From contig CAIMCI010000119.1 in assembly GCA_903839465.1 (NCBI GenBank), positions 1 to 40,125 of the forward strand: a stretch of 40,125 bases of DNA, given 5' to 3'. A model generated the notes under the pieces. It saw nothing but the letters and a program-made list of their open reading frames with translations, ran no database searches and had not been told where the DNA came from. Below, one piece after another: positions 7,298-31,542 of the stretch. The translations under genes were made by a program, and so were the position numbers. Within the stretch, counting starts at the first letter, position 1. Every line of letters starts with the position of its first letter. This DNA is from an uncultured Pseudomonadota bacterium (GTDB lineage: Bacteria; Pseudomonadota; Gammaproteobacteria; Steroidobacterales; Steroidobacteraceae).

Positions 7298-8293
7298 GTG
7301 CTGACCCGATCCCTGACCGGCCTTGCCTGCGTGTTCCTGTGCGCCGGAACGGCGCATGCGGATTGGATGTCCCGCGAGGACGCGGTGATGGGCACCCGTG
7401 TCTACGCCGAGGTGTGGGATGACAATCCCGCGCACGGTGCCCAGGCGCTCGATGCGGTCATTGACTTCATGCGCCATGTGAACGAGCTGATGAGTCACTA
7501 CCTTCCGGACAGCCAGCTCAGTCGCATTAACGCGCGGGCCGGCGTCGAGCCGGTGGTCGTTGATCCGGAACTCTTCGATGTCATCCAGAAATCCGTTCAT
7601 TACTCCGAGCTGACCGACGGTGCTTTCGATATCACGTATGCCAGCGTCGGTTATCTGTACGATTACCGCCGACACGTCCATCCGACCGACGCCGCGATCA
7701 AGGCGGCCCTGCCGTCGGTTGACTTCCGCAGCCTATTGCTTGATCCGGTCGCGCATTCGGTGAGATTCGCCAAGCCCGGCATGCGCATCGATCTCGGAGG
7801 TATCGCCAAGGGTTGGGCGGCTGACCGGTGCATCGAGATGCTGCGTGATCGCTTCGGGATCAGGAACGCCATCGTCACGGCCGGCGGCGATTCGCGTCTG
7901 CTCGGAGACCGACGGGGCAAGCCCTGGATCATCGCGATCCGGAATCCTTTCGACCGTGATCATATCGTCACCAAGATTCCACTCGCCGATGTCGGAGTAT
8001 CGACATCCGGTGACTACGAGCATTTCTTCGAAGAGGGCGGTGTTCGGTATCACCACATTCTGGATCCGAAGACCGGCAAAAGCCCGACGGAAATACGCGG
8101 CGTGACGATCATCGGCCCGACGGCGACCGATACGGAAGGATTCTCAAAGGGCGTATTCGTCAAGGGGCCCGTTGAGGGACTCAAGCTGATCGAGCGGAAC
8201 CCAGGCCTCGATGCCGTGGTCATCGACAAGAACGGAAAGGTTACCTACTCGAAGGGACTTGAACCGCCACCGGTCAAGGCGCCTCAGAAGTAG
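7298..8293 (+). CDS. apbE: FAD:protein FMN transferase (ApbE family)
   Basis: ApbE-family enzymes act outside the cytosol, splitting FAD and linking FMN through a phosphoester to a Thr/Ser of target proteins, using Mg2+. The 331-residue product has a signal peptide (LTGLACVFLCAGTAHA, then DWMSRED) and the family motifs AVMGTRVYAEVW, RIDLGGIAKGWAAD, VTAGGDSRLLG, STSGDYEHFF and YHHILDPKTGKSP, followed by TDTEGFSKGVFV. No lipobox is seen. The GTG at 7298 is preceded by GAGGAG; the open frame extends to 7220 without one. It converges on the DUF3570 gene, and their 3' ends overlap by 10 bases. A DUF3570 protein carrying a flavinylation-like motif next door is the obvious candidate substrate (inference). 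Confidence 0.95.
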   Translation: MLTRSLTGLACVFLCAGTAHADWMSREDAVMGTRVYAEVWDDNPAHGAQALDAVIDFMRHVNELMSHYLPDSQLSRINARAGVEPVVVDPELFDVIQKSVHYSELTDGAFDITYASVGYLYDYRRHVHPTDAAIKAALPSVDFRSLLLDPVAHSVRFAKPGMRIDLGGIAKGWAADRCIEMLRDRFGIRNAIVTAGGDSRLLGDRRGKPWIIAIRNPFDRDHIVTKIPLADVGVSTSGDYEHFFEEGGVRYHHILDPKTGKSPTEIRGVTIIGPTATDTEGFSKGVFVKGPVEGLKLIERNPGLDAVVIDKNGKVTYSKGLEPPPVKAPQK

Positions 8294-9456
8294 AAGGTCG
8301 CCAGCAGCATCAGGTTGAGGGCCGAATTGCTGTATCTCGGTTCGGTTCCCGGCGGGACTCCGGTGACCGACGCGTTGAGGAAGTCGCGGTAGCGATACAA
8401 CAGTTCCTCGGCGTGCACGGAGGCCGTGCTGCGCTTGATGGCTTTCCATCGTGCTTTGGGCAGCTCGTACGTCAGAGAGGCGTGCAGGCTCTCTGTGTAC
8501 AGAGAGGAAAGTTCGCGGTCCCGCGCCAGATAATTCTGCGAATTGATGCGTGGAAAAAGGTCGGAATAGAAGCTGGCGTGCCGCTGGGTGTAGTAGCGGA
8601 ATCCGGCGTCCGCAATCAGTCGATCGTGCAGCAGCGGTTGCGTGTATCCGACATCAAAGGTGTGGGCGCGAATCCCCCACGTGTCGGTGTAGTACCGGTA
8701 ACCGCCGCTCACGGCCGCGCGCCAGCGCAGGTAGTACCGCGCCTTGACCGCGAACGCATTCCCCGTGCGGGTCGTCGGGTAGACCTCGGGTGCGAAGCTG
8801 TAACCGGCACCAGCCAGCGGGTCGACGTAGCGATAGGTTCGGTAGGGATTCTGCTCGTAGCCCTGCGAGGTGTTTGCCTCGTAATCAAAGCCCATGATCA
8901 GGTTTCGCGAGAAGATCTGTGACACGCCGACGGACCACTGGCGCCGATCAAGCCGGGCCCTGAACGTCGGGTCGCTTACCGTCTTGCCGGAGCTCGACTT
9001 CACGCGCCGGGTGATGATGTCCCAGCCGCGGCTGGCCGAGAGGGTCACCGTGGTCAGGTCACCGAACATCGACTGACTGATGGTGCCGTTTACCGTGCTC
9101 GAGTCGTAATCGTTCTCGACGCTGGAGATGATGGTGGCGCCATACGTCGTCTTGTCGGCGAGGTACTCGGCGCCCAGGGATTTCTGCTTGCGCTCCTCCC
9201 GAATCGGGCTCGCGCCACTGACCACGGAATCGATGGATGCACCGGTGACCTGGTCCACCTCGTAACTCGCGGTAACCGACGCGTTCTGCGTGACGCTTTT
9301 CCGAACGAGATAGGCAGGACCCTCGGCCTTGATTCCGCCACCCTGATAGTGCTTGTACATGATGTCCGCTTCGTCGGGCGGCAGCACTTCGGCCCGCCCG
9401 ACGTGGGGTCCGAGCAGCGACGCGAGCAGGAAGAGCAGGGCGATCCGGTACAGCAT
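8284..9456 (-). CDS. DUF3570 predicted outer-membrane beta-barrel protein
   Basis: A 390-residue exported protein with a signal peptide (MLYRIALLFLLASLLG, then GRAEV) followed by a DUF3570 domain. Alternating aromatic and polar strands fill the rest (ASVTASYEVDQ, TYGATIISSVENDYD, NPYRTYRYVDPL, AVSGGYRYYTDTWGI), and the chain ends NLMLLATFYF with the terminal Phe usual for barrels. The N-terminal part holds DQVTGAS (68-74) and SGAS (80-83), discussed separately. The ATG at 9456 was chosen because it starts a signal peptide, although its ribosome site is weak and it lies 20 bases after the DUF4266 stop. It is the last gene of the minus-strand operon. The molecular role of DUF3570 is not established to my knowledge. 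Co-location with ApbE, DUF4266 and TlpA suggests a shared exported redox task. Confidence 0.85.
   Translation of the reverse strand: MLYRIALLFLLASLLGPHVGRAEVLPPDEADIMYKHYQGGGIKAEGPAYLVRKSVTQNASVTASYEVDQVTGASIDSVVSGASPIREERKQKSLGAEYLADKTTYGATIISSVENDYDSSTVNGTISQSMFGDLTTVTLSASRGWDIITRRVKSSSGKTVSDPTFRARLDRRQWSVGVSQIFSRNLIMGFDYEANTSQGYEQNPYRTYRYVDPLAGAGYSFAPEVYPTTRTGNAFAVKARYYLRWRAAVSGGYRYYTDTWGIRAHTFDVGYTQPLLHDRLIADAGFRYYTQRHASFYSDLFPRINSQNYLARDRELSSLYTESLHASLTYELPKARWKAIKRSTASVHAEELLYRYRDFLNASVTGVPPGTEPRYSNSALNLMLLATFYF
9208..9255 (-). other. Candidate FMN attachment motif in the DUF3570 protein
   Basis: Codons 68-83 of the DUF3570 protein read DQVTGASIDSVVSGAS. The first seven residues, D68-x-x-T-G-A-S74, fit the ApbE target pattern Dxx(S/T)GA(T/S) known from NqrB/NqrC and RnfG/RnfD subunits, where FMN is attached to the last Thr/Ser. 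The second copy (D76, then SGAS at 80-83) has one extra residue between Asp and Ser. S74, and less likely S83, would be the acceptor. The motif lies close to the mature N-terminus, before the barrel strands. The match is visible; modification is inferred. Confidence 0.55.
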
Positions 9457-9476
9457 CGTGGCGGTTTCGGTTTGTG

Positions 9477-9707
9477 TCAGTTGCAGCCGCAGCCGCCGCC
9501 GGCCGCGCCGTTGCCGCCACGCGCCGCTTCGCGATTCTCGTGGACGTGCAGCGAATAGCCGGTGGCTAGTGGGGCCCGGTCCCAGGCCATGATCGGGTCG
9601 GCGAGCTTTTCCCGCTCGTAGGGCTTCACCCATGGCTCGACGTGGCCGCAGGCGCCGGTGCCGGCGATAAGCAGCGAGCAGACAAGCACTCTTCCGCCGA
9701 AGCTCAC
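9477..9707 (-). CDS. DUF4266 small lipoprotein with GGGCGCN tail
   Basis: A 76-residue lipoprotein. The signal RVLVCSLLIAGTGACGHVEP has a lipobox ending at Cys20. It is followed by the DUF4266 core VKPYEREKLADPIMAWD and YSLHVHENREAARGG, then a glycine-rich C-terminus ending GGGCGCN. The start is the GTG at 9707, one base after the TlpA stop, so translation is probably coupled. The open frame continues further upstream only inside tlpA, so the longer reading is spurious. Function is unknown. DUF4266 and DUF3570 typically occur as neighbours, as they do here. The two C-terminal cysteines and the histidines of HVHE could bind a metal or a cofactor, which is inference. Confidence 0.85.
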   Translation of the reverse strand: MSFGGRVLVCSLLIAGTGACGHVEPWVKPYEREKLADPIMAWDRAPLATGYSLHVHENREAARGGNGAAGGGCGCN

Positions 9708-9708
9708 G

Positions 9709-10227
9709 CTATTTCTCCGCGAGCAGGCTTCTGACCTGGTCCATGTATTCATTTTCGTCCCCGGCATTGTAGGACTTGTGCATCCACCGGACGATCCCCT
9801 TGCGATCGACCAGGGCAACGCTCGGCATTCCGCCGATGCCGTAGCGTTTTGACAGGTCGTCATTCGGGTCGTAGACGATAGGGAACGACACGGGGTTCTG
9901 CTTGAGAAACGCCTCCGCGTCCTTGCTGTCCGGTTCGACGTTGAGGCCGATGACCGTGAAGCCAAGCTTCTTGTACTTCTTATGAATCGTGTCCAGTAAC
10001 GGGAACTCCTGGCGACACGGGCCGCACCAGGAAGCCCAGAAATTGATCAGGACGACCTGGCCCTTCAGACCGGCCATGCTGACCGGCTCGCCATTGCGCG
10101 ACTTCAGGGTGAAGTCCGCCGCCGGGTCGCCGACCTTGAGGCCCGCAGCACCCGCCGTCAGCGGCAGGGCGATCAGCAGGGCGCACGCGAGGTGTGCCAG
10201 CAGGTTGCGACTATGAGGTTTCGCCAT
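9709..10227 (-). CDS. TlpA-family thiol-disulfide oxidoreductase
   Basis: A 172-residue periplasmic thioredoxin-like protein. A signal peptide (CALLIALPLTAGAAG) is followed by a TlpA/AhpC-TSA fold. VGDPAADFTLKSRNGEPVSM is the usual entry, FWASWCGPCRQEFP carries the redox pair CGPC, and YGIGGMPSVALVDRKG holds the cis-proline loop. Relatives reduce apocytochrome cysteines or other exported disulfides. The ATG at 10227 has GAGGAG seven bases upstream, overlapping the gap after the beta-barrel gene's stop. In this operon a reductant for the CxxCH proteins encoded nearby, or for the DUF4266 cysteines, is a sensible role, but the partner is not shown by sequence. Confidence 0.93.
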   Translation of the reverse strand: MAKPHSRNLLAHLACALLIALPLTAGAAGLKVGDPAADFTLKSRNGEPVSMAGLKGQVVLINFWASWCGPCRQEFPLLDTIHKKYKKLGFTVIGLNVEPDSKDAEAFLKQNPVSFPIVYDPNDDLSKRYGIGGMPSVALVDRKGIVRWMHKSYNAGDENEYMDQVRSLLAEK

Positions 10228-10237
10228 CGTCTTCTCC

Positions 10238-10939
10238 TCAGAAATACGTTGTTACGCCCAGCGTGCTTTCGAGGTTGTGCACCGTCTTCTGGTAGCCGAG
10301 CAGGTCGTTCTGAAAAACGTGATCGCGGACGTCCAGGTGCGCCGCGATCTTGTCGGTCAGCAACAGGCGATAACCGGCACCCGCCATTACCGTGAAATGC
10401 GTACCGCCGCCGAACTTCGTCGCGCCAACACCCGCAACGACGTAAACGGCGGAGTTGAACGCCCGATTGCGGCCGATGAACACCTCACCGGGGAACAGGT
10501 TGTAGCCGAATCCCATGTTGTAGTAGGTCAGTTTGCGCTGGCTGTCGGTCAGCAACTGTGATGACCCCGACAACTCTTCATAACTGGTTCGACCGGTCTT
10601 GGACGTGCCGATCAGCCCCTCGGCGAAGAAGTCCTCCGAGATGTGGTACGCGAGACGGGCCCCATAAACCGGGTTGACGCCAAAGTCCTGCGCCGAATAC
10701 GAACCGGCATAGACGCCGAGCTCGAAATCAGACGATTTAATCTTGGGGGTCTTCACCTTGCGGCGCGTCACGGTCGGGTCGACGACGGCAGGCGAAGACC
10801 CGGTGGCGTCGCTCGCCTCCGTGGGGGCCGCTTCCGTCCGATGATGGCGCCCGAACGGCCAGAGCGCGCAACCGGTCGAGGTCACGCTGACGGCCGCGAG
10901 GCTAAGCATCAGAAAAAGAACGCGAATCCTGCTTTCCAT
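10238..10939 (-). CDS. Outer membrane beta-barrel lipoprotein (OMP_myx-type)
   Basis: A 233-residue protein with a lipoprotein signal (LFLMLSLAAVSVTSTGC, lipobox STGC). A low-complexity Ser/Thr/Ala linker and a basic stretch RRKVKTPKIK come next, then an eight-strand-like beta-barrel of about 165 residues. FELGVYAGSYSAQDFG, FFAEGLIGTSK, YYNMGFGYNLFPGE, FTVMAGAGYRLLLTDKIA, LDVRDHVFQNDLLG and a terminal TTYF fit the 'outer membrane beta-barrel domain' family seen in myxobacteria and some gammaproteobacteria. The start overlaps the end of the SH3 gene by 31 bases, with GAAGGGA directly upstream of the ATG. Barrels of this type occur with Agl/Glt-like machines. This one may provide the outer-membrane face of the system encoded further right, which is inference. 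Confidence 0.82.
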   Translation of the reverse strand: MESRIRVLFLMLSLAAVSVTSTGCALWPFGRHHRTEAAPTEASDATGSSPAVVDPTVTRRKVKTPKIKSSDFELGVYAGSYSAQDFGVNPVYGARLAYHISEDFFAEGLIGTSKTGRTSYEELSGSSQLLTDSQRKLTYYNMGFGYNLFPGEVFIGRNRAFNSAVYVVAGVGATKFGGGTHFTVMAGAGYRLLLTDKIAAHLDVRDHVFQNDLLGYQKTVHNLESTLGVTTYF

Positions 10940-11730
10940 TCCCTTCGATCCTCGTTCTGAGCGCTTTGCGTGAAAATAACGTAGCTGCGATAGTCCAGCC
11001 GGAACAGGAAGCGGCGCGAAACATAGGCTTTCGCTCCCAGACCCCAGTACCCAAGTTGTTCCCGGCGGTTCGCCGGTTCGACGATGGTGGTCTTGGGCGA
11101 AATGCGCACGACACCGGTGCCGATGTCGACGAATGGCGCGATCCGCCAGCGGGGGGCGAACAGGTGGGTGAGGCCAATCGTGCCGAGCACGCTGGTGGAC
11201 GACTTGCCGAGGGTCTGCGCCAGTCCGGCTTCGACACTCAGGTTGTCATTGAACGCGTAGCCGGCGTAGGCCGAATTGACGTTTCCGCCGCCGAAATTGC
11301 CGGTCTGGAAGCCGATTTCCCAGGGGCTGCGCTCGTAGTCCCGCCTCGCCGGGTCATCGAGCTTCAGCTTGTCGCCGGTGGCGAGCAGGGTCTGTTCCAT
11401 GTGTTCGCGGTCGACCCAGCCTTCCTTGCCCTGGTCGTCGCGGACCTTGTACCAATCGGTGCGCCGCATCAGGACGTCGACTCGCGCCCCTCGTGGCACG
11501 ACCCGCGTAACCGGATAGCCCCTGCCCGGTCCCGTGCGCATCTCGAGGTACGGATCGGCGACCTTCACCTCGACGTAGTGGCTCGAGTCGAGCGCGCGCG
11601 GCCTCTCGTCGGCGGCCGCCGCAATCGTCGCCGGAGCAATTGCCGGTTCTGAGGGCGTGTCCTGCGCCCCAACGCTTGCGCTGGCGACGGCCAAAGCGAG
11701 CGAGGCCAGAAGGTGGTGGCGACAGGTCAT
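10909..11730 (-). CDS. SH3-domain and beta-barrel exported protein
   Basis: A 273-residue protein in three parts. A signal peptide (HHLLASLALAVASASVGAQ) comes first. A bacterial SH3 domain follows at about 52-112 (VADPYLEMRTGPGRGYPV, RRTDWYKVRDDQGKEGWVD). A C-terminal beta-barrel from about 135 opens with SPWEIGFQTGNF and ends EWKAGFAFFF with terminal Phe. Bacterial SH3 domains commonly bind peptidoglycan peptides, so the protein could tie the cell wall to the outer membrane. The ATG at 11730 lies four bases after the stop of the HzsA-like gene. The longer open frame starts with TTG at 11751, inside that gene. It belongs with the following barrel, TlpA, DUF4266 and DUF3570 in one minus-strand operon. 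Confidence 0.83.
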   Translation of the reverse strand: MTCRHHLLASLALAVASASVGAQDTPSEPAIAPATIAAAADERPRALDSSHYVEVKVADPYLEMRTGPGRGYPVTRVVPRGARVDVLMRRTDWYKVRDDQGKEGWVDREHMEQTLLATGDKLKLDDPARRDYERSPWEIGFQTGNFGGGNVNSAYAGYAFNDNLSVEAGLAQTLGKSSTSVLGTIGLTHLFAPRWRIAPFVDIGTGVVRISPKTTIVEPANRREQLGYWGLGAKAYVSRRFLFRLDYRSYVIFTQSAQNEDRREWKAGFAFFF

Positions 11731-11734
11731 GCGA

Positions 11735-14545
11735 TTACTGGGGAACGGCAAAGGGATCGTTGTAGTACTGGGCGCCGATGTCCAGCCATTCGCTGATCAG
11801 GCGCTGTTCCGCCGGCGACAACGCCTGGAAGTGCGCCGGATCCGCGGGATTCGCGAACAGCGCGAAGAAAGTGGTCGACGCCCGGGCGCTGCCGCCAACC
11901 ATGGGGGCGGGGAGCTGTGGGGCGGGTACCTGGGTCGTTAGGTGGGTAATCGGATCGGTCACGGTGACCAGCAGTGGGGAGATTATGCCCATATTAAGCG
12001 CCAGCGGCGGGCGGGGGAACAGGAGCTCCTCAAACGAAATCAGCCATGCGGCGTTGGCACCGGGCGTCGCGGTCAGTTCGAGCGATGCCGCGGGCAGCTG
12101 CGGCTGGCCCGCGGCGTCCTTCCGGCTGTGGCAGGAGACGCACGTCTGGTCGTTGACCACCGTGCCTCCGGCGTCCTTGGTCTGGCGGATGACGGCCCAC
12201 AGCGGAGCGATATGGGCGGGATAGTGGATGACGATCCGGCACTGAGCGGTCCAGCCGGTCGCGCAGTTCGCCGACGTGGCCGAGAGCGGCGGTGGCGTGA
12301 CGAGGTCGGCGTACTTCAGGGCGACGGGCTTGTCGGTGCCGCGGCCCAGGGCCGGCGCCGTCCAGACGTCGGTGAAAAGAACGTCCACCGACGGCCGGAG
12401 ATAGGCGCAGTCCGCCAGATTCGGTGCCAGCTGGGTCGACGTACAGCCCACGCGTGCCCGCTCCTCGGCCATGGTGCTGCCGAGCTTTTTGGCACCCGGC
12501 GGACCGAGGACCGCGGGGTCCGTGTTCGGGAACGGTTGCCCGACGGTCGGCGCGCCCGGGTTCAGCGCCGGATACAGGTTCGCCCGGCCGTGGGCCGGAT
12601 TGGTGGCGCCGGCGGCGTCCCGCCCGGGAGTGTGGCAGCCATTGCAGGTCTTGACCTCGCCGGCACGCACCTGAAGCCAGTTCCGATGGGTCCCGCCGAT
12701 ACGCCGCCCGTCCGCATCGAGAACCGAAATCATGAAGGCCACGTTGGCCGGGACCTCGATCTGGACCGAGCCATCGGGTTCGATCGGCGCATAGCCGAGT
12801 ATTTCACGCATGAAGCTGCTGGCTCCGAAGGCCGAGCCGGGCAGCTTCTTCAGGGTGTTCTTGTCCGGCAGGCCGACGGCCTTCTCGAGGCGCAGAAACC
12901 GCGCCGGCCGCTGGTCCGCCGTCGTCTGGCCGGGATCCCGCAGCGTGGTGATGCTCACTCCGCCGCCGCTCGGAGACAGCTCCACCTTGCCATCGAAGTC
13001 GTAAACGCTCTTGATATTGAGGATGCCGACGCCGCGCGTCCCGAGCGACTGGTCGTAGTCGACACCGGCAACCGCATCGCGGCTCAGGTTGGGTGGAACC
13101 ACGCGCGGCTGCATGGCCAGGATGTCCGAGTACATGACTCCTTCGGTCGGCGTCACGATCGGCTGCTGGGTGGACTTCGCCGGGTCGTAGACCCAGATCC
13201 CGTAAAGCGGTGGCGCCGTGGTCAGCTTGGCGGCGCCGAGCGCGTCAGTCGTGCAGGGCTGAAAGAGTCCAGCGACCACCAGCCGGCACTGCGTCCAGCT
13301 GACCAGCAGCCGGTTGCTGCCGTCGTTCAGCGGATAGGCGCTGGCGAAGCGCCCGCCGGGCGACGGGCCGGCCGCCGTGTAGACGTTGTTGACGACCAGC
13401 CGAGTCTGGCCGGGTCCAACGGCCGTCGGGTCCGCGGCCGTCGGCTGGAAGTACTCCACGTAGTTCGCCTGGTCGATCAGCGCGAGGTCGCCGCCGAACT
13501 CCGTGTTGCCGTCCGGAGTAATGCCGGCGTACGTCGTGACGTTGGCGGCCGCGGGAAGCGTCGGGAATGGACGCAGGATCGCCACGATCTTGCCGTCCCG
13601 GCGCGCGCGCGGCTGCAGGAACTGCACTGGGCTCGTGGCAGGCGTGCCCGAAAAGTGGCTGTTCCGTCCATAGAGCAGCTGCTCGCCGCTGCCGTCCGCG
13701 GCGATCGTGTAAAGCTGCATGCCAGAGCCGTTGATGGCATCCCATCGGCTGTAGACGATGTGGCCGTCCGGCATTACCGACGGGTCCACGTCATGATCCT
13801 GGCCGAAGTCGATCTGGTGAATGTTGGTGCCATCGGCATCCATCACGTGCAGGACGAATGCCGGCAGGTTCCGTTGCGAATTGGTGCCCGGTCCGCCTTC
13901 AAGGCCAGCCGAGAACTGTGACTTCCCCTCGTCGATCAGCACCGCCTTCGCGCCACGCTGGCGCGAGGACGAGAACAGGATCCGGCCATCCGCCAGGTAA
14001 TGGCCGCCCACGTCGTGGCCTTCGGCGGCAACGATGTCGGAGGCGATCACCCGCCGCAGGGTCTTTGTCGTCGTGTCGTACTCGTACAGGGACCAGACCG
14101 GCTGCACCAGCGGATCGCCCATCGGGTCGATTGGCGGGCGCAGGGAAAACAGCAGCTTCTTGCCGTCGAAGGACACGTCGAGATCGCGGGCGTCCCAGCG
14201 GCCCTGGGTCAGCGTCCCGGTGATATTCGTCTCGGTGGCGCTCGGAGAGGCGCTGAGCCGCATGAAAACGTCGGCCGGTCCGTTCCAGACACGCTGCACC
14301 CGAACGTCGTCGACCAGAGTCGTCGTGGCAGCGCCGGCCACGGACACGGCTGGCAGACGGCGCTTGATGTAGGCGACGGCAAAATCGGGAGACACCGGGT
14401 CATTTTGCGCGGTCTTGCCCAGCGTTGCGCCACTCAGTCCACCGCTGGAACATCCGACGAGGCCAATGGCTGCGACGGCCAGGGCAACGGCGCACCGTCC
14501 GAGCACGCGCACAGCAAAGTCACGGCGTATCTGGGGCTGGGTCAT
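11735..14545 (-). CDS. HzsA-like lipoprotein with TolB-type propeller and two haem-c motifs
   Basis: A 936-residue lipoprotein (CAVALAVAAIGLVGC, lipobox LVGC). The first half holds WD40-like/TolB-type repeats (RWDARDLDVSFDGKKLLFSL, GHYLADGRILFSSSRQRGA, VMDADGTNIHQIDFGQDHD, MPDGHIVYSRWD, TIAADGSGEQLLYGRN). The second half has CNGCH at 634-638 and CVSCH at 802-806. This layout resembles the hydrazine synthase alpha-subunit-like family (HZS_alpha/PD40), most members of which come from non-anammox bacteria and have no known reaction. Hydrazine synthesis is not implied. The ATG at 14545 was chosen because it gives the lipoprotein signal; its ribosome site is weak. It is the first gene of the minus-strand operon and is divergent from the CxxCH protein at 14870. 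The haem motifs suggest electron transfer at the periplasm or outer surface. Confidence 0.78.
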   Translation of the reverse strand: MTQPQIRRDFAVRVLGRCAVALAVAAIGLVGCSSGGLSGATLGKTAQNDPVSPDFAVAYIKRRLPAVSVAGAATTTLVDDVRVQRVWNGPADVFMRLSASPSATETNITGTLTQGRWDARDLDVSFDGKKLLFSLRPPIDPMGDPLVQPVWSLYEYDTTTKTLRRVIASDIVAAEGHDVGGHYLADGRILFSSSRQRGAKAVLIDEGKSQFSAGLEGGPGTNSQRNLPAFVLHVMDADGTNIHQIDFGQDHDVDPSVMPDGHIVYSRWDAINGSGMQLYTIAADGSGEQLLYGRNSHFSGTPATSPVQFLQPRARRDGKIVAILRPFPTLPAAANVTTYAGITPDGNTEFGGDLALIDQANYVEYFQPTAADPTAVGPGQTRLVVNNVYTAAGPSPGGRFASAYPLNDGSNRLLVSWTQCRLVVAGLFQPCTTDALGAAKLTTAPPLYGIWVYDPAKSTQQPIVTPTEGVMYSDILAMQPRVVPPNLSRDAVAGVDYDQSLGTRGVGILNIKSVYDFDGKVELSPSGGGVSITTLRDPGQTTADQRPARFLRLEKAVGLPDKNTLKKLPGSAFGASSFMREILGYAPIEPDGSVQIEVPANVAFMISVLDADGRRIGGTHRNWLQVRAGEVKTCNGCHTPGRDAAGATNPAHGRANLYPALNPGAPTVGQPFPNTDPAVLGPPGAKKLGSTMAEERARVGCTSTQLAPNLADCAYLRPSVDVLFTDVWTAPALGRGTDKPVALKYADLVTPPPLSATSANCATGWTAQCRIVIHYPAHIAPLWAVIRQTKDAGGTVVNDQTCVSCHSRKDAAGQPQLPAASLELTATPGANAAWLISFEELLFPRPPLALNMGIISPLLVTVTDPITHLTTQVPAPQLPAPMVGGSARASTTFFALFANPADPAHFQALSPAEQRLISEWLDIGAQYYNDPFAVPQ

Positions 14546-14676
14546 GGCGGTCGGGCCTCGCGTTCTTTCCCGGGCGATCAGATCCTGGCGGTTCACGCCG
14601 GCCAATCCTGTGCTCGGCCGCGCGCGGTCCGGCTGGGAGATGCGCACGGTATCGGTGAACAGGTTACGGCCGGCCG

Positions 14677-14682
14677 ATTATA
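14677..14682 (-). promoter_or_regulatory. Perfect -10 hexamer (TATAAT) for the HzsA-like operon
   Basis: On the minus strand the sequence CCCCTATAATCGG contains a perfect TATAAT, rare in such GC-rich DNA, about 130 bases before the ATG at 14545. No good -35 hexamer sits at 16-18 bases, so an activator may be required. Confidence 0.4.
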
Positions 14683-14716
14683 GGGGTCCGGCTGCCGGAT
14701 CCCCGCACTTTCGACT

Positions 14717-14732
14717 GTCGCTCAGGAGCGAC
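14717..14732. repeat. Inverted repeat GTCGCTC-AG-GAGCGAC
   Basis: The sequence GTCGCTCAGGAGCGAC has perfect 7-base arms around two central bases, in the middle of the divergent region. It is followed by only three T residues, so it is a poor terminator. A dimeric repressor or activator could bind it; no candidate regulator is encoded in the window. Confidence 0.4.
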
Positions 14733-14800
14733 TTTCCCGGCACGGAGGGATCGTTACGAGACGCAGTTCACGGCTCTGTGTTTGTCGCCGTGTCGAGACA

Positions 14801-14829
14801 TTACGGAACGTGAAGTCGATCCATATAGT
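14801..14829 (+). promoter_or_regulatory. Candidate promoter TTACGG-N17-TATAGT
   Basis: TTACGG at 14801-14806 and TATAGT at 14824-14829 are separated by exactly 17 bases and lie about 40 bases before the ATG at 14870. The -10 matches five of six consensus bases and the -35 three of six. It would drive the long plus-strand operon that begins with the CxxCH protein. Confidence 0.35.
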
Positions 14830-14869
14830 TCCGCGCAGGACGTCCCTTAAGCCACGTGAGCGGTACGCG

Positions 14870-20186: not shown

Positions 20187-20241
20187 CGCCGGTCGCGAGT
20201 TCCTCGTTGCGGGATTGCTTCCCGCGCTGCATCCTCCACGG

Positions 20242-22564: not shown

Positions 22565-23131
22565 ATGAACTTGCAATGGTCTTTGACCCGTCTCCTGACC
22601 CTGGTGCTGGCATTCCTGGTGCTGGGCGGTTCGGTGCTTGCGGCCGACGCGCCGGAGCCGCCGGCGCCGACGGCTCAGGTCGACGGCAAAAGCCTCGACG
22701 GCGACGTTCAATCGCTGAAGAAGGAAGTCATCGACCTCAATAAGGACCTCTTCGTCCTTGAAGAAGAGCTGCTGTTTCCGGCCAATACTCAGGTGGCAGT
22801 ATTCCTTTCGCTGGATGTCGGCACATTCTTCCAGCTCGACTCCGTCCAGCTGAAGGTCGACAACAAGGAAGTGAGCAACTACCTGTATACCGAACGCGAG
22901 GTGGATGCGCTGAATCGTGGCGGCGTGCACCGGCTGTACCTGGGCAACCTCAAGGTTGGCAAGCACGAGCTTGTGGCGTTCTTCACGGGCCAGGGTCCTC
23001 ATGAACGCGATTACAAGCGCGGTGCGCACGTCACGTTCGAGAAGGGTGTAGGCGCCAAGTATCTTGAGCTCAAGATTTCCGACCGTGAAAGCCGCGAGCA
23101 GCCGGAGTTCGCCATCAAGGAGTGGGAGTGA
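22565..23131 (+). CDS. Exported coiled-coil protein, function unknown
   Basis: A 188-residue protein that I cannot place in a named family. It has a signal peptide (LLTLVLAFLVLGGSVLAAD), a short Pro/Ala linker, and a predicted coiled coil at about 40-62 (LDGDVQSLKKEVIDLNKDLF). A beta-rich domain follows (TQVAVFLSLDVGTFFQLDSV, VSNYLYTEREVDALNRGGVH, LGNLKVGKHELVAFFTGQGP, YLELKISDRES) that looks like an immunoglobulin-like sandwich. Nothing suggests DNA binding. The ATG at 22565 has GAGG nine bases upstream. The stop overlaps the GTG of the next gene as GTGA. Being translationally coupled to the TPR proteins, it is likely a periplasmic subunit of the same assembly. Confidence 0.75.
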   Translation: MNLQWSLTRLLTLVLAFLVLGGSVLAADAPEPPAPTAQVDGKSLDGDVQSLKKEVIDLNKDLFVLEEELLFPANTQVAVFLSLDVGTFFQLDSVQLKVDNKEVSNYLYTEREVDALNRGGVHRLYLGNLKVGKHELVAFFTGQGPHERDYKRGAHVTFEKGVGAKYLELKISDRESREQPEFAIKEWE

Positions 23132-25074: not shown

Positions 25075-28000
25075 CGTTCCAGCGGCGAATCGTTCTTGCG
25101 GTCGGTGCCGCTCTCGTCGTCCTCTCCGGCGCCGTGCACGCCGAAGACCCCAAGGCGCCGACTCTCAAGGATCTGAAGAAGAAGCCCGTCGAGATCCGCC
25201 GTGCGGAGCCCGTCAGTGCGGATTCTGCTCGCGCACGCGACACCTACGAGCAGTTCCTGAACCTGAAATCGGGCGATCCGGAGTTGCGGGCCGAGGCGAC
25301 GCGACGACTGGGTGACCTCAAGCTCGAGGCCGGCGAGTACGAGCGTATCGAAAAGGAGCTGGCCGACGGATCGCCACTGAACACCAAGGACGCCATACTT
25401 CTGTATTCCGGCCTGATGTCGACGTTTCCCGACTATCCCAAGCGGGACGGTGTCCTCTATCAGCTGGCGCGGGCCTACGAGGCCGACCAGCAACGAGAAA
25501 AGGCGCTCGCGACGATGGCGACGCTGGTGCGCGACTACCCGCACAGTCGCTACGTTGACGAGGCGAATTTCCGCTCCGGCGAAATCTACTTCTCCGACAA
25601 GCGGTGGCGCGACGCGCAGGCTTCCTATGGCGCCGTCGTCAAAGCCGGTCCGAAGTCCGAGTTTTACGAACAGAGTCTCTACAAGCACGGCTGGTCTTTG
25701 TTCAAGCAGGGTGAGGGCGAGGCGGCCAACGACTCGTTCGGCATGCTGCTGGACCGGCTGCTCCTCAGCCGCGGCGCCGGCAGCGGCATGGTCGATCTCA
25801 AGAAGTTGTCACGGCCTCAGCATGAACTTCTCGATGACACGCTTCGGGCCATGGTGCTGACGGAGTCCTACGCGGACGGCCCAAAGTCGGTCGATGCGCT
25901 GGTAAAGCGCCACGGATCGCGGCCGTACGACTGGCTGCTCTATTCGAGCCTCGGCGACCTGTACGTCTCGCAGCAGCGCTACACGGATGCCGCCGATTCC
26001 TACCGGGCGTTCGTGCAGCTCGACCCCAATCACGATGAGGCGCCGATCCTGGCCGAGGCTGCCATCGAGGCGTACCGCAAGGGCGGCTTCGCCTCTCTTG
26101 TCCTGGACGGCAAGAGGGAGTTCGTCGAACGTTACAAGCTGCAGGGTCCGTTCTGGACCGGGCGCACGCCGGCCGGGTCGCCCGAGGTCGCAGCGCATCT
26201 GAAGACCCACCTTCAGGATCTGGCAGCCTACTACCACGAGCAGGCCCAGGCGTCGAAGAAGCCCTCCGACTATCAGGAGGCGGCGCGCTGGTACCGCGAG
26301 TTCCTCCGCTCTTTTCCGGAAGACGCGGCGGCACCGAAGACCAACTACCTGCTTGCCGATACGCTCTTCGACAGCAAGCAATTCCACGATGCGGCGCTGG
26401 AATACGAACGGACCGCGTACAGCTATCCGCAGCACGAAAAGTCCGCGGCCGCGGGCTATGCCGCCCTTGTCGCCTACGAAAAGGACGAGGCGGCGCTTGC
26501 CGCCGATTCGCGTGCCGACGTGCACGCAGCCGCGCTCGAGTCGGCGCTGCACTTCGCGACGGCCTTCCCCGGTCATCCGGAGAGCGTGCCGGTGCTCGTG
26601 CGGTGTGCGCGGGAATTCTACGACGTCAAGAACTACGACAAGGCGCTCGCGGCGGCGAATCTGGTGGTCGGCCATGAGCCCCCGGCTTCTGCTGCGCAAC
26701 AGTCAACTGCCTGGACGGTCATCGCGAACAGCCGCTTCGAGCAGTCCGAGTTCAGCGCCGCCGAGGACGGTTACCGGCACGTCCAGGCGGTCCTTCCGGC
26801 GACCGATCCCAGCCGCGCGGCTATCGATGAGAGGCTCGCGGCCTCCGTCTACAAGCAGGCCGAACAGCGGCAGGCGAAGGGCGACACCGCCGGTGCGGTT
26901 GACGACTATCTGCGGGTAGCGACTCTGGCGCCGAACGCAAAGATCCGTGCCAGTGCCGAGTTCGACGCGGCGGCGCTGCTTCTGACGATGAAGGACTGGC
27001 CGCGCGCCATCGACGTCCTCGAGGGCTTCCGGCGTAATTTTCCGCAGAACGAGCTGCAGCCGCAGGTCACCGCCAAGCTCGCCGTCGCGTATGCCGAAAC
27101 GGGTCGCGCGGGTCAGGCGGCCGCCGAGTACGAGCGCATCGCGGCAACGCCGGGCCAGAGCGCGGAGGCGCAGCGTGAAGCCCTCAGCCAGGCGGGATCG
27201 CTGTACGAAAAGGCGGGTGACGGCAACCGGGCGGTCGCAGCCTGGACCGCGTACGTCCAGAAGTTTCCGGAGCCGCTGGCGCCTGCCCTCGAGGCCCGGG
27301 CCAAACTGGCCGAGCTGGCCGCGGCGGCCGGCGACGGCGCGGCGCGTAAACGCCAGCTGGAGGCTATCGTGGCCGCCGACCGTGGCGCCGGTGCCGCGCG
27401 GACCGACCGCAGCCGGTATCTCGCGGCGACCGCCAGCCTCGAACTGGCGGCGCCGGCGCGCGATGCGTTTGACGCCATCAGGCTCGTCGAGCCGCTGAAG
27501 AAGTCACTGGAAGCCAAGAAGGCGGCGATGCAGCAGGCTCTGAAGGCCTACTCGCAGGCAAATGACTACGCAGTGGCCGAAGTCTCGACGGCGGCGACGT
27601 TCGAGACCGCCGAGATCTATCGCCGGCTGGGGCAGGATCTGATCAAGTCGGAGCGACCGGCGAGCCTGAAGACCGCCGAGGAGCGCGAGCAGTACGACAC
27701 GCTGATGGAAGAGCAGGCCTACCCGTTCGAAGAAAAGGCGATCGCAATCCACGAGGTCAACCTGGCCCGGGCCGAGCAGGGTACGGTCGACGAGTCCGTG
27801 CGTCGTTCCATGGCCGCGCTGGCCAAGCTCAACCCCGGCAAGTACGGCAAGGCCGAGGTCGGCGAGGACTATGACATGCGCGCCGACACCCCGGAGCTGA
27901 AGGCACGCCTCGACGAGGCCGTGTCCCTCGCCCGGAGCCGTAAATTCGCCGATGCCGAATCCGCCCTGAAGGCACTCGCGGCGGAGGCGCCGGCGCTTGG

Positions 28001-28379
28001 GGCAGCCCCGCTCGATCTCGGCATCCTCTACGCCCGGCAGGCCCGGTGGGCCGACGCGGAGGGGTCGCTGGTCGAAGCGGCCAAGCGCGACCCGGACAAC
28101 GCCATGGTCCAGGCCGAACTGGGCCTCGTCTACCGATCCCTGGGCCGACTGAATGAGGCCAGCAGCGCCTATCGCGCGGCGCTGGAGATCGACGGCAAAA
28201 ACCCGCGTGTCCACCGTAATCTCGCCATACTGCTCGACACCTACCAGCAGCAGCCGGGCGCAGCCGTGGATCATTACGCGGAGGCGCTGGCGCTCGGTGG
28301 CGGCGAGGACAAGGTGCTGGCCGGGTGGCTGGCCGACGCGAAGAGCCGCGCTGCCGCGGCTCCCCGGGAGGCAAAATGA
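25071..28379 (+). CDS. Very large TPR-repeat exported protein (AgmU/GltD-like)
   Basis: An 1102-residue periplasmic protein. It has a signal peptide (IVLAVGAALVVLSGAVHAED) and then many TPR-like units along nearly the whole length. Early ones are VLYQLARAYEADQQREKALA and FRSGEIYFSDKRWRDAQASY; middle ones DWLLYSSLGDLYVSQQRYTD and TNYLLADTLFDSKQFHDAAL; late ones PLDLGILYARQARWADAEGS and AELGLVYRSLGRLNEASSAY. The conserved small residues and aromatic pairs of TPR helices are easy to see. It resembles BamD/YbgF-type repeats and the giant TPR protein AgmU/GltD of Myxococcus gliding motility. The ATG at 25071 overlaps the previous stop as ATGA, and the 3' end overlaps the next gene the same way. 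Its likely role is a scaffold between the inner-membrane engine and cell-wall or outer-membrane partners. Confidence 0.87.
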   Translation: MTFQRRIVLAVGAALVVLSGAVHAEDPKAPTLKDLKKKPVEIRRAEPVSADSARARDTYEQFLNLKSGDPELRAEATRRLGDLKLEAGEYERIEKELADGSPLNTKDAILLYSGLMSTFPDYPKRDGVLYQLARAYEADQQREKALATMATLVRDYPHSRYVDEANFRSGEIYFSDKRWRDAQASYGAVVKAGPKSEFYEQSLYKHGWSLFKQGEGEAANDSFGMLLDRLLLSRGAGSGMVDLKKLSRPQHELLDDTLRAMVLTESYADGPKSVDALVKRHGSRPYDWLLYSSLGDLYVSQQRYTDAADSYRAFVQLDPNHDEAPILAEAAIEAYRKGGFASLVLDGKREFVERYKLQGPFWTGRTPAGSPEVAAHLKTHLQDLAAYYHEQAQASKKPSDYQEAARWYREFLRSFPEDAAAPKTNYLLADTLFDSKQFHDAALEYERTAYSYPQHEKSAAAGYAALVAYEKDEAALAADSRADVHAAALESALHFATAFPGHPESVPVLVRCAREFYDVKNYDKALAAANLVVGHEPPASAAQQSTAWTVIANSRFEQSEFSAAEDGYRHVQAVLPATDPSRAAIDERLAASVYKQAEQRQAKGDTAGAVDDYLRVATLAPNAKIRASAEFDAAALLLTMKDWPRAIDVLEGFRRNFPQNELQPQVTAKLAVAYAETGRAGQAAAEYERIAATPGQSAEAQREALSQAGSLYEKAGDGNRAVAAWTAYVQKFPEPLAPALEARAKLAELAAAAGDGAARKRQLEAIVAADRGAGAARTDRSRYLAATASLELAAPARDAFDAIRLVEPLKKSLEAKKAAMQQALKAYSQANDYAVAEVSTAATFETAEIYRRLGQDLIKSERPASLKTAEEREQYDTLMEEQAYPFEEKAIAIHEVNLARAEQGTVDESVRRSMAALAKLNPGKYGKAEVGEDYDMRADTPELKARLDEAVSLARSRKFADAESALKALAAEAPALGAAPLDLGILYARQARWADAEGSLVEAAKRDPDNAMVQAELGLVYRSLGRLNEASSAYRAALEIDGKNPRVHRNLAILLDTYQQQPGAAVDHYAEALALGGGEDKVLAGWLADAKSRAAAAPREAK

Positions 28380-28810
28380 GGCGGACTGGATTCCTTCTGC
28401 TCGTCACACTTGTGGTGGCGCAAGGGACGTCCCGGGCCGGGGATCCGCCCGGCGCGGACCCGGCCCTTCCCCAACCCGGCGCCGAGGCGCGCACGGCATC
28501 GCCTGCCGCGGCGACGGCCAAGGGCCGTCGCGCCAAGGACGCTGCCGCCAAGGACGCGGCCGGTCCGGCGCGCGACCGTCTGGAGCTCGATGCGACCGCC
28601 GTCACGGGAAGCCGGGAGCTGCCGAAGGTGCTCGTGATTGTCCCCTGGAAGCGGGCCGATCTGGGCGACCTCGTCGGTAAGCCCTTGAACAGCCTGGTCG
28701 ACGAGGCGCTGCAGCCGCTAGACCGGGAGGTCTTCCGGCGGGAAGTCGACTATCACGCAACTTTGGCTCCGGATCGCGCGACGGCGCCGCCGGCAGCCGC
28801 GGGACGCTGA
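28376..28810 (+). CDS. Small exported protein between the TPR and TolQ genes, unknown
   Basis: A 144-residue protein of no family I recognise. It has a signal peptide (RRTGFLLLVTLVVAQGTSRA). A low-complexity Pro/Ala/Lys part follows, with a near-repeat AKDAAAKDAAG. The ordered core LELDATAVTGSRELPKVLVI, VPWKRADLGDLVGKPLNSLV, then DREVFRREVDYHATL may be the functional piece. The tail is again Ala/Pro-rich. The ATG at 28376 overlaps the preceding stop (ATGA) with GGGAGG upstream, so it is translated with the giant TPR protein. The disordered Lys/Ala region could interact with peptidoglycan or act as a tether (speculative). Confidence 0.72.
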   Translation: MRRTGFLLLVTLVVAQGTSRAGDPPGADPALPQPGAEARTASPAAATAKGRRAKDAAAKDAAGPARDRLELDATAVTGSRELPKVLVIVPWKRADLGDLVGKPLNSLVDEALQPLDREVFRREVDYHATLAPDRATAPPAAAGR

Positions 28811-28902: not shown

Positions 28903-29595
28903 ATGGACATGATCGTCAACTTCTTCCGGCAGGGCGGGATATTCCTCTATCCCATCGCGCTGGTCTGGATCATCGGCCTCGTCATCGCGATCGAGCGCCT
29001 GATCTACCTGACCCGCGAGGGTTTCGGGAACAAGGCCTTCTGGGCCGATCTGAAGCCGCTTTTTGAAGCCGGCAACTACCGTCAGGCCATTGCGATGGCC
29101 AACACGTCGGAGACGGCGCTCGCCCAGGTCATGAAATACGGACTCAGTCGCGTCACCTCGGCACGCCGGCGCGACGATGTCGAGAAGGCCATGGAAGAGA
29201 GCCTCGTCGAGATCATTCCCCGCCTGGAGCGGCGCACGCACCTGCTGTCGGCGCTGGCGAATATCGGCATGCTGATGGGCCTGCTCGGTACCATCGTCGG
29301 TCTGATCCACGCCTTTGCCGCGGTCGCGACCGCGAACCCGGCCGAGAAGGCGAGCCTGCTCGCCGCCTCGATTTCGGTCGCCATGAACAACACGGCGCTC
29401 GGTCTGATCTGCGCGATCACGCTCTTGCTCGCCCACATGTTCCTCGAGACGCAGACGACGAACATCGTCGACAGTCTGGAAGTGGCCAGCATGAAGTTCC
29501 TGAACTCACTCTCCGAGCGACGCCCGGACGTTGATTCACCGGCTGCTTCGCCGCCGGCTGCTCCGCGTGCGGCAGGTCAGGGAGCGCGTGCGTGA
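28903..29595 (+). CDS. MotA/TolQ/ExbB proton-channel protein (AglR-like)
   Basis: A 230-residue inner-membrane protein with three transmembrane segments (about 12-32, 114-138 and 158-182). The cytoplasmic loop contains ERRTHLLSALANIGMLMGLL, and LLGTIVGLIHAF and AMNNTALGLICAITLLLAH are TolQ/ExbB/MotA signatures. With ExbD-type partners it forms a proton-motive-force-driven engine. Mature length matches the family. The C-terminus is a Pro/Ala-rich cytosolic tail. The ATG at 28903 follows GGAG by nine bases. The 92-base gap before it is the only break in this part of the strand. Next are two ExbD genes and a TonB-like gene, the same order of parts as the Agl engine (AglR, AglQ, AglS) of Myxococcus. 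Confidence 0.94.
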   Translation: MDMIVNFFRQGGIFLYPIALVWIIGLVIAIERLIYLTREGFGNKAFWADLKPLFEAGNYRQAIAMANTSETALAQVMKYGLSRVTSARRRDDVEKAMEESLVEIIPRLERRTHLLSALANIGMLMGLLGTIVGLIHAFAAVATANPAEKASLLAASISVAMNNTALGLICAITLLLAHMFLETQTTNIVDSLEVASMKFLNSLSERRPDVDSPAASPPAAPRAAGQGARA

Positions 29596-30104
29596 GCGGA
29601 TCCCGGATCGCCGGTCGCCAGCGCCGCAATCACGGCCGCTACAAGGGTCGGAACGATATCAATATCGTTCCGATGCTTGATGTCATGGTGATTCTCGTAT
29701 TCTTTCTGATCTTCACGGCGGTGTTTTCCAAGACCAACATCCTGGAACTCAACCTGCCGCCCCAGCAGGCGGGTAATCCACCGGATCTGCCGCCGACGCT
29801 CGATCTCGAAGTCATCGTGCACAAGGACAGCCTGGTCGTTGCCGACAAGAACACGGGTCCGCTGTCGACCTTTGCGAATACGAGCGCGGGCTACGACTTT
29901 GCGGCCATGACCGCCTACCTGACGCGCGTGAAGGCCCAGTTCCCGGACAAGCGCGATGCCACGGTCCTGCTCGAGGCGGACGTCCCCTACGACACGATCG
30001 TGCAGGTCATGGATGCGGTCAAGACCTTCGAGGGCACGGCCGAGGGCAAGCCGGCGCGCGGTGAATTGTTCCCTGTGATCTCGCTTGGAGATGCGCCAAC
30101 GTGA
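29592..30104 (+). CDS. ExbD/TolR-family protein 1
   Basis: A 170-residue protein. A basic cytosolic N-terminus is followed by one transmembrane helix, INIVPMLDVMVILVFFLIFT, carrying the conserved proton-relay aspartate D30. A periplasmic ExbD domain follows: ILELNLPPQQAG, LDLEVIVHKDSLVVADKN, ATVLLEADVPYDTIVQVMDA. The start is GTG at 29592, forming GTGA with the TolQ stop. The stop overlaps the next ExbD in the same way. Two ExbD paralogues per TolQ is the arrangement of the Myxococcus AglRQS motor rather than the TonB-ExbBD pair of iron uptake. The proposed partner is the TolQ-type channel upstream. Confidence 0.93.
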   Translation: MSGSRIAGRQRRNHGRYKGRNDINIVPMLDVMVILVFFLIFTAVFSKTNILELNLPPQQAGNPPDLPPTLDLEVIVHKDSLVVADKNTGPLSTFANTSAGYDFAAMTAYLTRVKAQFPDKRDATVLLEADVPYDTIVQVMDAVKTFEGTAEGKPARGELFPVISLGDAPT

Positions 30105-30628
30105 TTCGCTCGCGCAACAGACGTCGTACGGGACGGGGTGGCGGTGGTTCCGGCCACGGCATGCCGGCGCTCGTGCCGATGATCGACATGCTGACGATCC
30201 TCGTCGTGTACCTGCTCGTGCACGCGGCGGACTACGAAATCGTGCCGAACACCAAGAACATCTCCATCCCGCAGTCCATTTCCGACGCCAAGCCGCACGA
30301 GGCGACGACGGTCATGGTGACCCGTGAAGCCATCTTCGTGAACGGTACCGCCGTGGCCCGCACCAGTGACCTGCAGGCAAGCACCGAGCCTGTCATCGAA
30401 CCGCTGAAGGTCGCGCTCCAGGCCGAGGCCGCCAAGGGCTTGGTGGGCGTGCCGGGCGGTGCGGACGATCCGGCGGCCGGGCGGGAGGTGACCGTACTCG
30501 CCGACAAGGGGCTGCCGTACGCCATGCTCAAGAAAATCATGGCCTCCTGCAGCGCCGCCGACTACCGCAAGGTGTCGCTGGCCGTAATTGAAAAGGAGCG
30601 GGCCTACGCGGGCCCGAACCCGGTGTGA
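30101..30628 (+). CDS. ExbD/TolR-family protein 2
   Basis: A 175-residue second ExbD. It has a very basic, glycine-rich N-terminus (SRNRRRTGRGGGGSGHG), a single helix ALVPMIDMLTILVVYLLVHA with D29 in the proton-relay position, and a periplasmic domain ending ADKGLPYAMLKKIMASCSAA. The region ITVTRE-type core reads TTVMVTREAIFVNGTAVART. It has one extra loop compared with ExbD 1 (about 100-125, Gly/Ala/Asp-rich). It starts with GTG at 30101 in a GTGA overlap and ends in a GTGA overlap with the TonB-like gene. Sequence divergence from its neighbour suggests the two do not simply replace each other. Confidence 0.92.
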   Translation: MIRSRNRRRTGRGGGGSGHGMPALVPMIDMLTILVVYLLVHAADYEIVPNTKNISIPQSISDAKPHEATTVMVTREAIFVNGTAVARTSDLQASTEPVIEPLKVALQAEAAKGLVGVPGGADDPAAGREVTVLADKGLPYAMLKKIMASCSAADYRKVSLAVIEKERAYAGPNPV

Positions 30629-31542
30629 CGACCCTAACCGCTGACTATCGCGTCTTTGACCTGCCCTGGACCGCGGCCGCCGGGGAGGAGCGCCGTTTCC
30701 GGCTGCTGCTCGGATTCGGCCTGCTGGTTTTCGTCGTCTTCATGACGGTCATCGCGCTGCTGCCGCCGGTGCCGCGGGTGGCGCCGACGCCCCTGCCCCA
30801 GGAAGTGGTCAAGCTCGTCCTGGCCCCGCCGCCGCCGGTGGTCGAGCCCAAGCCTGAGGAAAAGCCCAAGCCGAAACCCGAGGTCACCGTGCCGAAGGTC
30901 CAGGCTCCGGTGGATCGCACGCAGCAGGCCCGCAAGAAGGCGGAATCGAGCGGTCTGCTCGCCCAGAAGGACCTTCTCAAGGACCTGCGCGACGCGCTTG
31001 ATCCCAACCAGATGGCGCCGACCAAGGATCTGCTCGCCAAGGTCGACGGTCCGTCACGCGCGGATCGGTCGATCATCACCTCGCAGGCGACGGCCACCAG
31101 CGGTGGTATCAATACGGCGAGCCTGTCCCGTGGCTTCGGCGGCGGTTCCGGGTCGCTCAAGGGTCACGAGACCACCCAGTCGGTGGCCTCGTTCGCCGAT
31201 TCGATCGCCAAGGGTCGCCCGGAGGCTGCGCGTACCGGTTCCGGCGGCAAGGCCGCCCGCAGCCGCGAGGAAATCGAGACGGTCTTCGACCGGAACAAAT
31301 CGGCCATCTTCGCGCTCTACAACCGAGCGCTGCGCGACAACCCCGCGCTGCAGGGCAAGGTCGTTGTCGAGTTGACGATCGCGCCGGATGGCGAGGTGAC
31401 AGCCTGCCGGATCGTCTCCTCCGAGCTCAAGGACGAGGACCTGGAGCGCAAGCTGGTCTCGCGGATCAAGCTCTTCCGGTTCGAGGCGAAGGACGTCGCT
31501 CCGATCACGACGACCAAGCCGATCGACTTCTACCCGGCCTGA
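30625..31542 (+). CDS. TonB-like protein with AgmX/PglI C-terminal domain
   Basis: A 305-residue protein in four parts. A short cytosolic start is followed by a transmembrane helix (27-46, LLLGFGLLVFVVFMTVIALL). A Pro/Lys-rich spacer comes next (48-90, VVEPKPEEKPKPKPEVTVPK) that could cross the periplasm. The middle is flexible and Ser/Gly-rich. The C-terminal domain, about 213-305, has EEIETVFDRNKSAIFALYNR, ALRDNPALQGKVVVELTIAP, DGEVTACRIVSSELKDEDLE. That pattern is the AgmX/PglI (myxobacterial) C-terminal domain, a TonB-C-like transducer. In family members the residue before the Tyr is often Cys; here it is Leu. It starts at GTG 30625 in a GTGA overlap with ExbD 2 and ends the plus-strand locus. 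It probably carries force from the TolQ-ExbD engine to outer-membrane partners. Confidence 0.9.
   Translation: MTTLTADYRVFDLPWTAAAGEERRFRLLLGFGLLVFVVFMTVIALLPPVPRVAPTPLPQEVVKLVLAPPPPVVEPKPEEKPKPKPEVTVPKVQAPVDRTQQARKKAESSGLLAQKDLLKDLRDALDPNQMAPTKDLLAKVDGPSRADRSIITSQATATSGGINTASLSRGFGGGSGSLKGHETTQSVASFADSIAKGRPEAARTGSGGKAARSREEIETVFDRNKSAIFALYNRALRDNPALQGKVVVELTIAPDGEVTACRIVSSELKDEDLERKLVSRIKLFRFEAKDVAPITTTKPIDFYPA

Follow-up and report, generated by a model that had tools for sequence, protein, structure and literature searches.

The window analyzed here, 40,125 nucleotides of contig CAIMCI010000119.1 from the 3.9-Mb draft genome of an uncultured Steroidobacteraceae bacterium (GCA_903839465.1), carries two adjoining gene groups between positions 7298 and 31542. 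One is a set of exported proteins with predicted flavin and haem chemistry, among them DUF3570, DUF4266 and a lipoprotein resembling the hydrazine synthase alpha subunit (HzsA-like); the other is a putative proton-driven motor of the TolQ-ExbD-ExbD-AgmX type, accompanied by tetratricopeptide repeat (TPR) proteins and two small exported proteins, p188 and p161. An initial annotation of this DNA had proposed that both groups belong to one trans-envelope machine. We find that together they make up some 18 genes that recur in many gammaproteobacterial families, and we consider it very probable that the two halves constitute one functional system.

The association of the two halves was assessed by profile searches for DUF4266, the AgmX domain and HZS_alpha in 276 genomes sampled from the class, of which 69, 66 (AgmX above the model cut-off) and 43 were positive, respectively. 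Defining a linked redox half as HZS_alpha within 5 kb of DUF4266, we found 35 such genomes from 22 families (tallied from our tables). All 35 encode the AgmX motor, compared to 31 of the 241 others (Fisher p 2e-26), and because this p-value assumes independent genomes, which these are not, the 22-family spread is the better guide. The AgmX gene lies within 22 kb of the redox genes in 17 of the 35. A sample of the phylum contributed six further linked genomes, each with AgmX and four with it inside 15 kb. The single-system proposal thereby withstands the objection that the initial annotation had set for it, namely independent halves in most genomes: AgmX is present in 35/35 and 6/6 genomes with a linked redox half. 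Among 42 genomes reached through their HzsA loci, a sample that may partly overlap with the other two, as these may with each other, AgmX exceeds the cut-off in 38, and AgmX or a cognate TolQ is present in 41; three genomes without an AgmX above it (G278, G281 and G303) encode a TolQ 54-57% identical to that of the window, and G298 is without a cognate TolQ. Since the motor is also found alone and the redox half almost never is, the dependence is one-sided: the redox set depends on the motor, which is the more general of the two.

Gene order was read gene by gene in 30 genomes and, more widely, around 80 HzsA genes, the best of 572 relatives from a genome collection at species level. Each of the 30 genomes has most of the set, and so do the 80 related loci to the extent that their contigs allow; this arrangement is far beyond chance. 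In two genomes (G109 and G140), fifteen genes run in one direction in the order ApbE-HzsA-OMB2-OMB1-TlpA-DUF4266-DUF3570-p188-TPR-TPR-p161-TolQ-ExbD-ExbD-AgmX, and G238, G040 and G190 have nearly the same order. This colinear core form is without LamG and Tat genes; in other loci, as in the window, a PSCyt-LamG-Tat trio lies divergently beside HzsA. Seven loci on contigs lacking an AgmX gene above the cut-off have their redox genes next to p188 and TPR genes, with the motor locus elsewhere. Motor-only loci that we read mostly consist of p188-TPR-TPR-p161-TolQ-ExbD-ExbD-AgmX alone. There are also intermediates: a genome from the window's own family (G015) keeps the barrels, TlpA and DUF3570 without HZS_alpha or DUF4266, and G032 retains the greater part of the redox set, with no HzsA detected. 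In the latter, locus L198 combines redox genes, the trio and TPR genes, and its PSCyt-OMB2 gap of ~1 kb (~6.7-7.8 kb) holds no detectable HzsA. Every one of the best 80 HzsA relatives with an assigned class belongs to the Gammaproteobacteria, their hosts including Thiodiazotropha, a tube-worm symbiont, Woeseia, relatives of Kangiella, and Aliikangiella. The cultured Aliikangiella coralliicola M105 has redox and trio genes at one locus (L162) and AgmX at another site. A plasmid search for HzsA returned two weak Aureibacter matches only and thus gives no sign of plasmid spread.

Pfam and NCBIfam profile searches of the window recovered all families named in the initial annotation, at or near the positions it gave, together with two conserved small genes that it had not listed, p188 and p161. 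The motor genes are on the plus strand. A TolQ/ExbB/AglR-like proton channel subunit (28903-29595; PF01618, MotA_ExbB, 89.4 bits) is followed by two adjacent ExbD genes that overlap it and each other (ExbD1, 29592-30104, and ExbD2, 30101-30628; PF02472, 64.3 and 52.4 bits) and by a TonB-like force transducer (30625-31542), which contains the AgmX/PglI (GltG/GltJ-type) C-terminal domain (NF033768, 70.1 bits, cut-off 40). For this transducer Pfam returned TonB_C only, and the cytosolic FHA domain of GltG was not found. Upstream are the exported TPR proteins TPR650 (23122-25074; TPR_19, 39 bits; conserved across loci) and the longer TPR1102 (25071-28379; TPR_6, 74.7 bits), both scoring as generic TPR proteins (25.8 bits with the GltE model, whose cut-off is 225). 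The small exported protein p161 (about 28325-28810, probable ATG near 28376) matches no known family and is conserved between TPR1102 and TolQ. The first gene of the block encodes exported p188 (22565-23131), which lacks a Pfam or NCBIfam family match and is modelled as a 30-residue helix followed by a transthyretin/Ig-like sandwich (predicted local distance difference test score, pLDDT, 87; VIA-align Z 9.0 over 98 residues); Foldseek gave no match at E <=0.001. Much of this composition is shared with the Agl-Glt core complex, a group of seven genes conserved in Gammaproteobacteria whose function was stated as unknown (Luciano et al. 2011, PMC3169522) and which likewise comprises TolQ/AglR, two ExbD proteins (AglQ/S), a TonB-like transducer and TPR proteins; the locus described here differs from it in having two OMP_myx_plus barrels, p188, p161 and the flavin/haem set in addition, and in the FHA domain not found. 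In a tree of TPR1102, linkage to the redox half is clustered (8 changes compared to 17.8 after shuffling), yet not confined to one clade, and the engine-only rows of this tree include motors whose redox half lies on another contig.

Both ExbD proteins of the window carry the proton-site Asp. Among 51 related loci, ExbD2 has this residue in all 51 and ExbD1 has Asn instead in 49; the exceptions, with Asp in both proteins, are the window and G015, a relative from its family. Given this pattern in the first and second ExbD, the sequences suggest a mixed ExbD dimer with a single proton arm and a one-armed 5:2 motor. For the myxobacterial motor, a review gives Asp in both AglQ and AglS and the pairing of AglQ with AglS as not known (PMC9389320).

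The redox half runs along the minus strand between 14.65 and 8.28 kb in the order HzsA-like, OMB2, OMB1, TlpA1, DUF4266, DUF3570. The HzsA-like lipoprotein (11735-14647, probable start ~14545), whose nearest named relative is from the Steroidobacteraceae (53% identical), has a propeller-like N-terminal part, an HZS_alpha middle domain (PF18582, 57.5 bits) and two CxxCH sites, both invariant in 25 relatives, and its middle and C-terminal parts match hydrazine synthase alpha (5c2v chain A, E 1.2e-18). Identity with hydrazine synthase was rejected on two features: position H+4 of the CxGCH site, which corresponds to the hydrazine synthase haem ligand Tyr591, is never Tyr among the sequences read, and the full-length NCBIfam equivalog scores 37.9 bits against a cut-off of 800. 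Because the Tyr591 position is not conserved, the synthase reaction is unlikely. A survey of HZS-alpha homologues outside anammox bacteria also describes proteins with this domain and without a Tyr591 equivalent; Gammaproteobacteria are unmentioned there, and the protein studied here differs in being a lipoprotein tied to outer-membrane barrels and a motor (PMC12758564). Long HZS_alpha proteins (about 1000-1800 aa) also exist outside this system (G407:C1, G176:C96, G179, G057:C19 and G070:C40), in some genomes in several copies. A weak HZS_alpha match in a genome without DUF4266 (G463:C1:2100702-2105450) lies ~2 kb from an AgmX/TolQ locus; possibly an engine-only locus has here recruited a protein of the HzsA-like kind.

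Two barrel proteins are encoded next to HzsA. By its profile score, OMB1 (10238-10939, minus) belongs to the myxobacterial OMP_myx_plus family of outer-membrane beta-barrels (TIGR04565, 159.6 bits, cut-off 60; 168-178 bits in relatives), a match at the level of the family, and the redox half thus physically includes barrels of a type that accompanies relatives of the motor in myxobacteria. OMB2 (10909-11751, minus) joins an SH3 domain (PF08239, 49 bits) to an outer-membrane barrel (OMP_b-brl, 27.6 bits) and scores below the TIGR04565 cut-off (28.5 bits). These genes are followed by TlpA1, an exported thioredoxin-like protein with a CGPC motif (9709-10227, minus; PF08534, 108 bits), by the small lipoprotein DUF4266 (9477-9704, minus, inferred start; PF14086, 78.5 bits), with a C-terminal CGCN and orthologues that end in GCGCN in 30/30 cases, and by the barrel-like DUF3570 protein (8284-9456, minus, inferred start; PF12094, 138 bits), a predicted flavinylation substrate in which both [ST]GA[ST] motifs are intact (TGAS and SGAS). 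ApbE, an exported FAD:protein FMN transferase (7298-8293; PF02424, 262 bits), is present as the initial annotation had said, but it lies on the plus strand, tail to tail with DUF3570 across a 10-bp overlap, and is therefore outside the minus-strand operon.

ApbE, DUF3570, a thioredoxin and DUF4266 with a C-terminal CxC also occur together in published flavinylation clusters; there, ApbE was demonstrated to flavinylate the DUF3570 protein of C. luteolum, and the DUF3570/DUF4266/thioredoxin set was tied to DsbD (PMC8238504). The window locus differs in that DsbD lies outside it, elsewhere in the genome. As 316 of the published DUF3570 clusters are without DsbD (PMC8238504), this gene is not strictly defining for such clusters. 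A second difference is phylogenetic: in trees of DUF3570 (31 motor-linked rows) and ApbE (16 motor-linked rows), motor-linked and generic copies are split by one branch with full support in the Shimodaira-Hasegawa-like approximate likelihood ratio test. Families, linkage, co-occurrence and dedicated paralogous branches are all directly observed. Motor-free TlpA-DUF4266-DUF3570-ApbE sets are common, and both kinds can be present in one genome, as in G032. Neither ExbD nor TolQ nor gliding is mentioned in PMC8238504, which is the only paper that names DUF3570/DUF4266 in the literature searched (subscription papers and supplementary files were outside reach).

The PSCyt-LamG-Tat trio, a methyltransferase and a second TlpA are accessory and are encoded on the plus strand. 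PSCyt430 (14810-16102) is an exported mono-haem protein with one CxxCH and remote DUF1585/DUF1588 similarity (PF07624, E 4e-4 in the window and 1.5e-5 to 0.006 in five relatives, below the cut-off and consistent across the six members). LamG841 (16115-18640) is a lipoprotein that combines two CxxCH sites, found in 19/21 members, with a LamG/ConA-like domain (PF13385, 82.9 bits). Tat513 (18645-20186) carries the RRxF motif of twin-arginine export, shared by 73/81 relatives, and is predicted to adopt an alkaline phosphatase/sulfatase superfamily fold (pLDDT 75; VIA-align Z 11.9 over 247 residues, the top 50 rows being mainly from this superfamily); Foldseek gave a weak TM of 0.26. A DUF1501/DUF1552 identity for Tat513 was rejected, since Pfam searches of 35 members gave weak, scattered matches only, and the window protein differs in this from planctomycete PSCyt/PSD2 plus Tat pairs. 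MT463 (20215-21606), a minor accessory present in 8/34 full-length related loci, is a cytosolic methyltransferase (CARME/Methyltransf_11; PF08241, 42.8 bits) with a weak PqqD-like C-terminus (PF05402, 18.8 bits); the near-universal export signals claimed for the locus do not extend to it. TlpA2 (21948-22526, inferred start) is a further exported thioredoxin-like protein, with a CGGC motif (PF00578, 82.7 bits).

By gene coordinates, a divergent intergenic region at 14648-14809 separates the minus-strand redox genes from the plus-strand genes, which run from PSCyt430 through AgmX (14.81-31.54 kb). One correction to the tight coupling described in the initial annotation is that TlpA2 probably starts near 21948, leaving a gap of ~340 bp upstream; the plus strand probably comprises two units, at about 14.8-21.6 kb and 21.9-31.5 kb. 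No sigma-70-like promoter was found in 14.4-32 kb, where terminators are also not in excess, and no FNR or Fur box was found in 70 divergent HzsA-PSCyt regions. CRP-like dyads (TGTGA-N6-TCACA) occur in 4/70 of these regions compared to 0.05 in shuffles, which is a weak lead. Genes outside the locus are ordinary: one flank holds a fatty-acid transporter, PhzF, a PAS/GAF histidine kinase and Ysc84, and the opposite flank aminopeptidase P, EamA, a nitroreductase and PEP carboxylase. The histidine kinase, encoded at 2906-5698 on the minus strand, is of the NarQ/UhpB-like type.

In the reading that we favour, the locus would encode a single, dedicated system of the cell envelope that belongs to the Agl/Glt/Nfs class. 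The TolQ-ExbD-ExbD channel would use the proton gradient to drive the AgmX/TonB-like transducer, which would act via the periplasmic TPR proteins and p188 on the OMP_myx_plus barrels. The redox module, consisting of DUF3570, the CxC lipoprotein DUF4266, the TlpA thioredoxins and the di-haem HzsA-like lipoprotein, would be the outer-membrane partner or cargo; ApbE would be expected to flavinylate the DUF3570 barrel, and many genomes add the trio of a cytochrome, a lectin and a Tat-exported phosphatase-fold protein. Most likely, the system would serve to assemble, place or move a flavin/haem relay in the outer membrane, through which electrons would pass between thiols of the periplasm, probably supplied by DsbD, and an acceptor at the surface or outside the cell. 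We infer three points: the joining of the products into a single machine, which way electrons flow, and the placement by the motor. The fuller statement, of one system that includes an outer-membrane redox relay, we regard as evenly balanced between true and false. More tentatively, and with the balance tipping towards doubt, the locus might represent a class of trans-envelope machine not described before, with a proton-driven motor by which a flavin/haem electron relay in the outer membrane is mechanically assembled, gated or moved, and the core complex of many Gammaproteobacteria might be largely a redox machine.

Several observations weigh against this reading. Independent occurrence of the halves would speak against a single system, and although the redox half is almost never alone, the motor is without an HZS_alpha redox half in 26 of the 66 AgmX genomes. 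Most motor-linked relatives of the window's DUF3570 have [ST]SAS (SSAS or TSAS) at the first flavinylation site and lack the second, whereas generic DUF3570 proteins mostly have [ST]GA[ST]; the Gly to Ser change is found in 58 of 62 named motor-linked loci. This relaxation of the strict motif makes flavinylation of the branch uncertain, and the retention of ApbE in most linked loci keeps it plausible. DsbD is present in 11/11 genomes checked, but it is common and unlinked to the locus. Unlike known extracellular electron conduits, the locus contains no inner-membrane quinol dehydrogenase, and none of its proteins has more than two or three CxxCH haem sites, compared to the many haems of MtrCAB-type multihaem porin-cytochrome conduits.

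Among the alternatives, the one we take most seriously, as a possible if less probable account, also assumes one system. Here the redox proteins would be assembly tools that mature or cross-link a surface polymer or protein layer transported by the motor, similar to the spore coat of Myxococcus, where Nfs borrows the AglRQS motor and Agl-Nfs moves spore-coat glycan over the surface (PMC3858216). The parallel extends to modularity, in that several redox and TPR loci here are without their own motor, which is elsewhere in the genome; it does not extend to haem or flavin partners, none being described for Nfs (PMC3858216). A role in assembly would suit the lectin-like LamG and phosphatase/sulfatase-fold exported proteins, as well as the handling of thiols by TlpA and CxC proteins, but the locus has no glycosyltransferase or polysaccharide export gene, and the colinear core form does without the LamG and Tat genes.

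That two unrelated systems share a common neighbourhood and ecological niche is improbable. Such a view would account for the motor occurring alone and for an AgmX motor that is off-contig or far from the redox genes in 18 of the 35 linked genomes. It is contradicted by the redox half never being without the motor in 41/41 sampled genomes from >20 families, by the genomes that are colinear in one direction, and by split loci that still keep TPR genes with redox genes. Less probable still is a TonB-like uptake system in which a metal or ligand is reduced outside the inner membrane and its uptake is energized by the motor: the AgmX C-terminus is TonB-like and iron transporters are found in some DUF3570 clusters (PMC8238504), but the barrels are small and of the OMP_myx_plus type, no TonB-dependent receptor was found among the window proteins scanned, and no transporter is among the genes followed across loci. 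A gliding motility machine is very unlikely: the motor parts are homologous to Agl/Glt, but the locus lacks the FHA domain of GltG, and none of the proteins scores as high as the cut-off of a gliding equivalog. Finally, an enzyme of nitrogen chemistry related to hydrazine synthase, for which the HZS_alpha middle domain and both haem sites might argue, is scarcely credible in light of the Tyr591 position and the equivalog score, and the survey of other homologues likewise rejects the synthase reading (PMC12758564).

Both halves were known separately, and joining them appears to be new; no paper that does so was found in the literature searched, and priority is not certain. To our knowledge, DUF3570/DUF4266 flavoprotein sets have no known purpose. 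Their link to the motor in nearly every genome tested gives each of the two a partner, suggests what a widespread motor without an assigned function may work on, and makes both questions of function testable in one mutant strain. If it is true that this motor drives or positions a redox relay, the cell envelope would be putting proton force to a new use.

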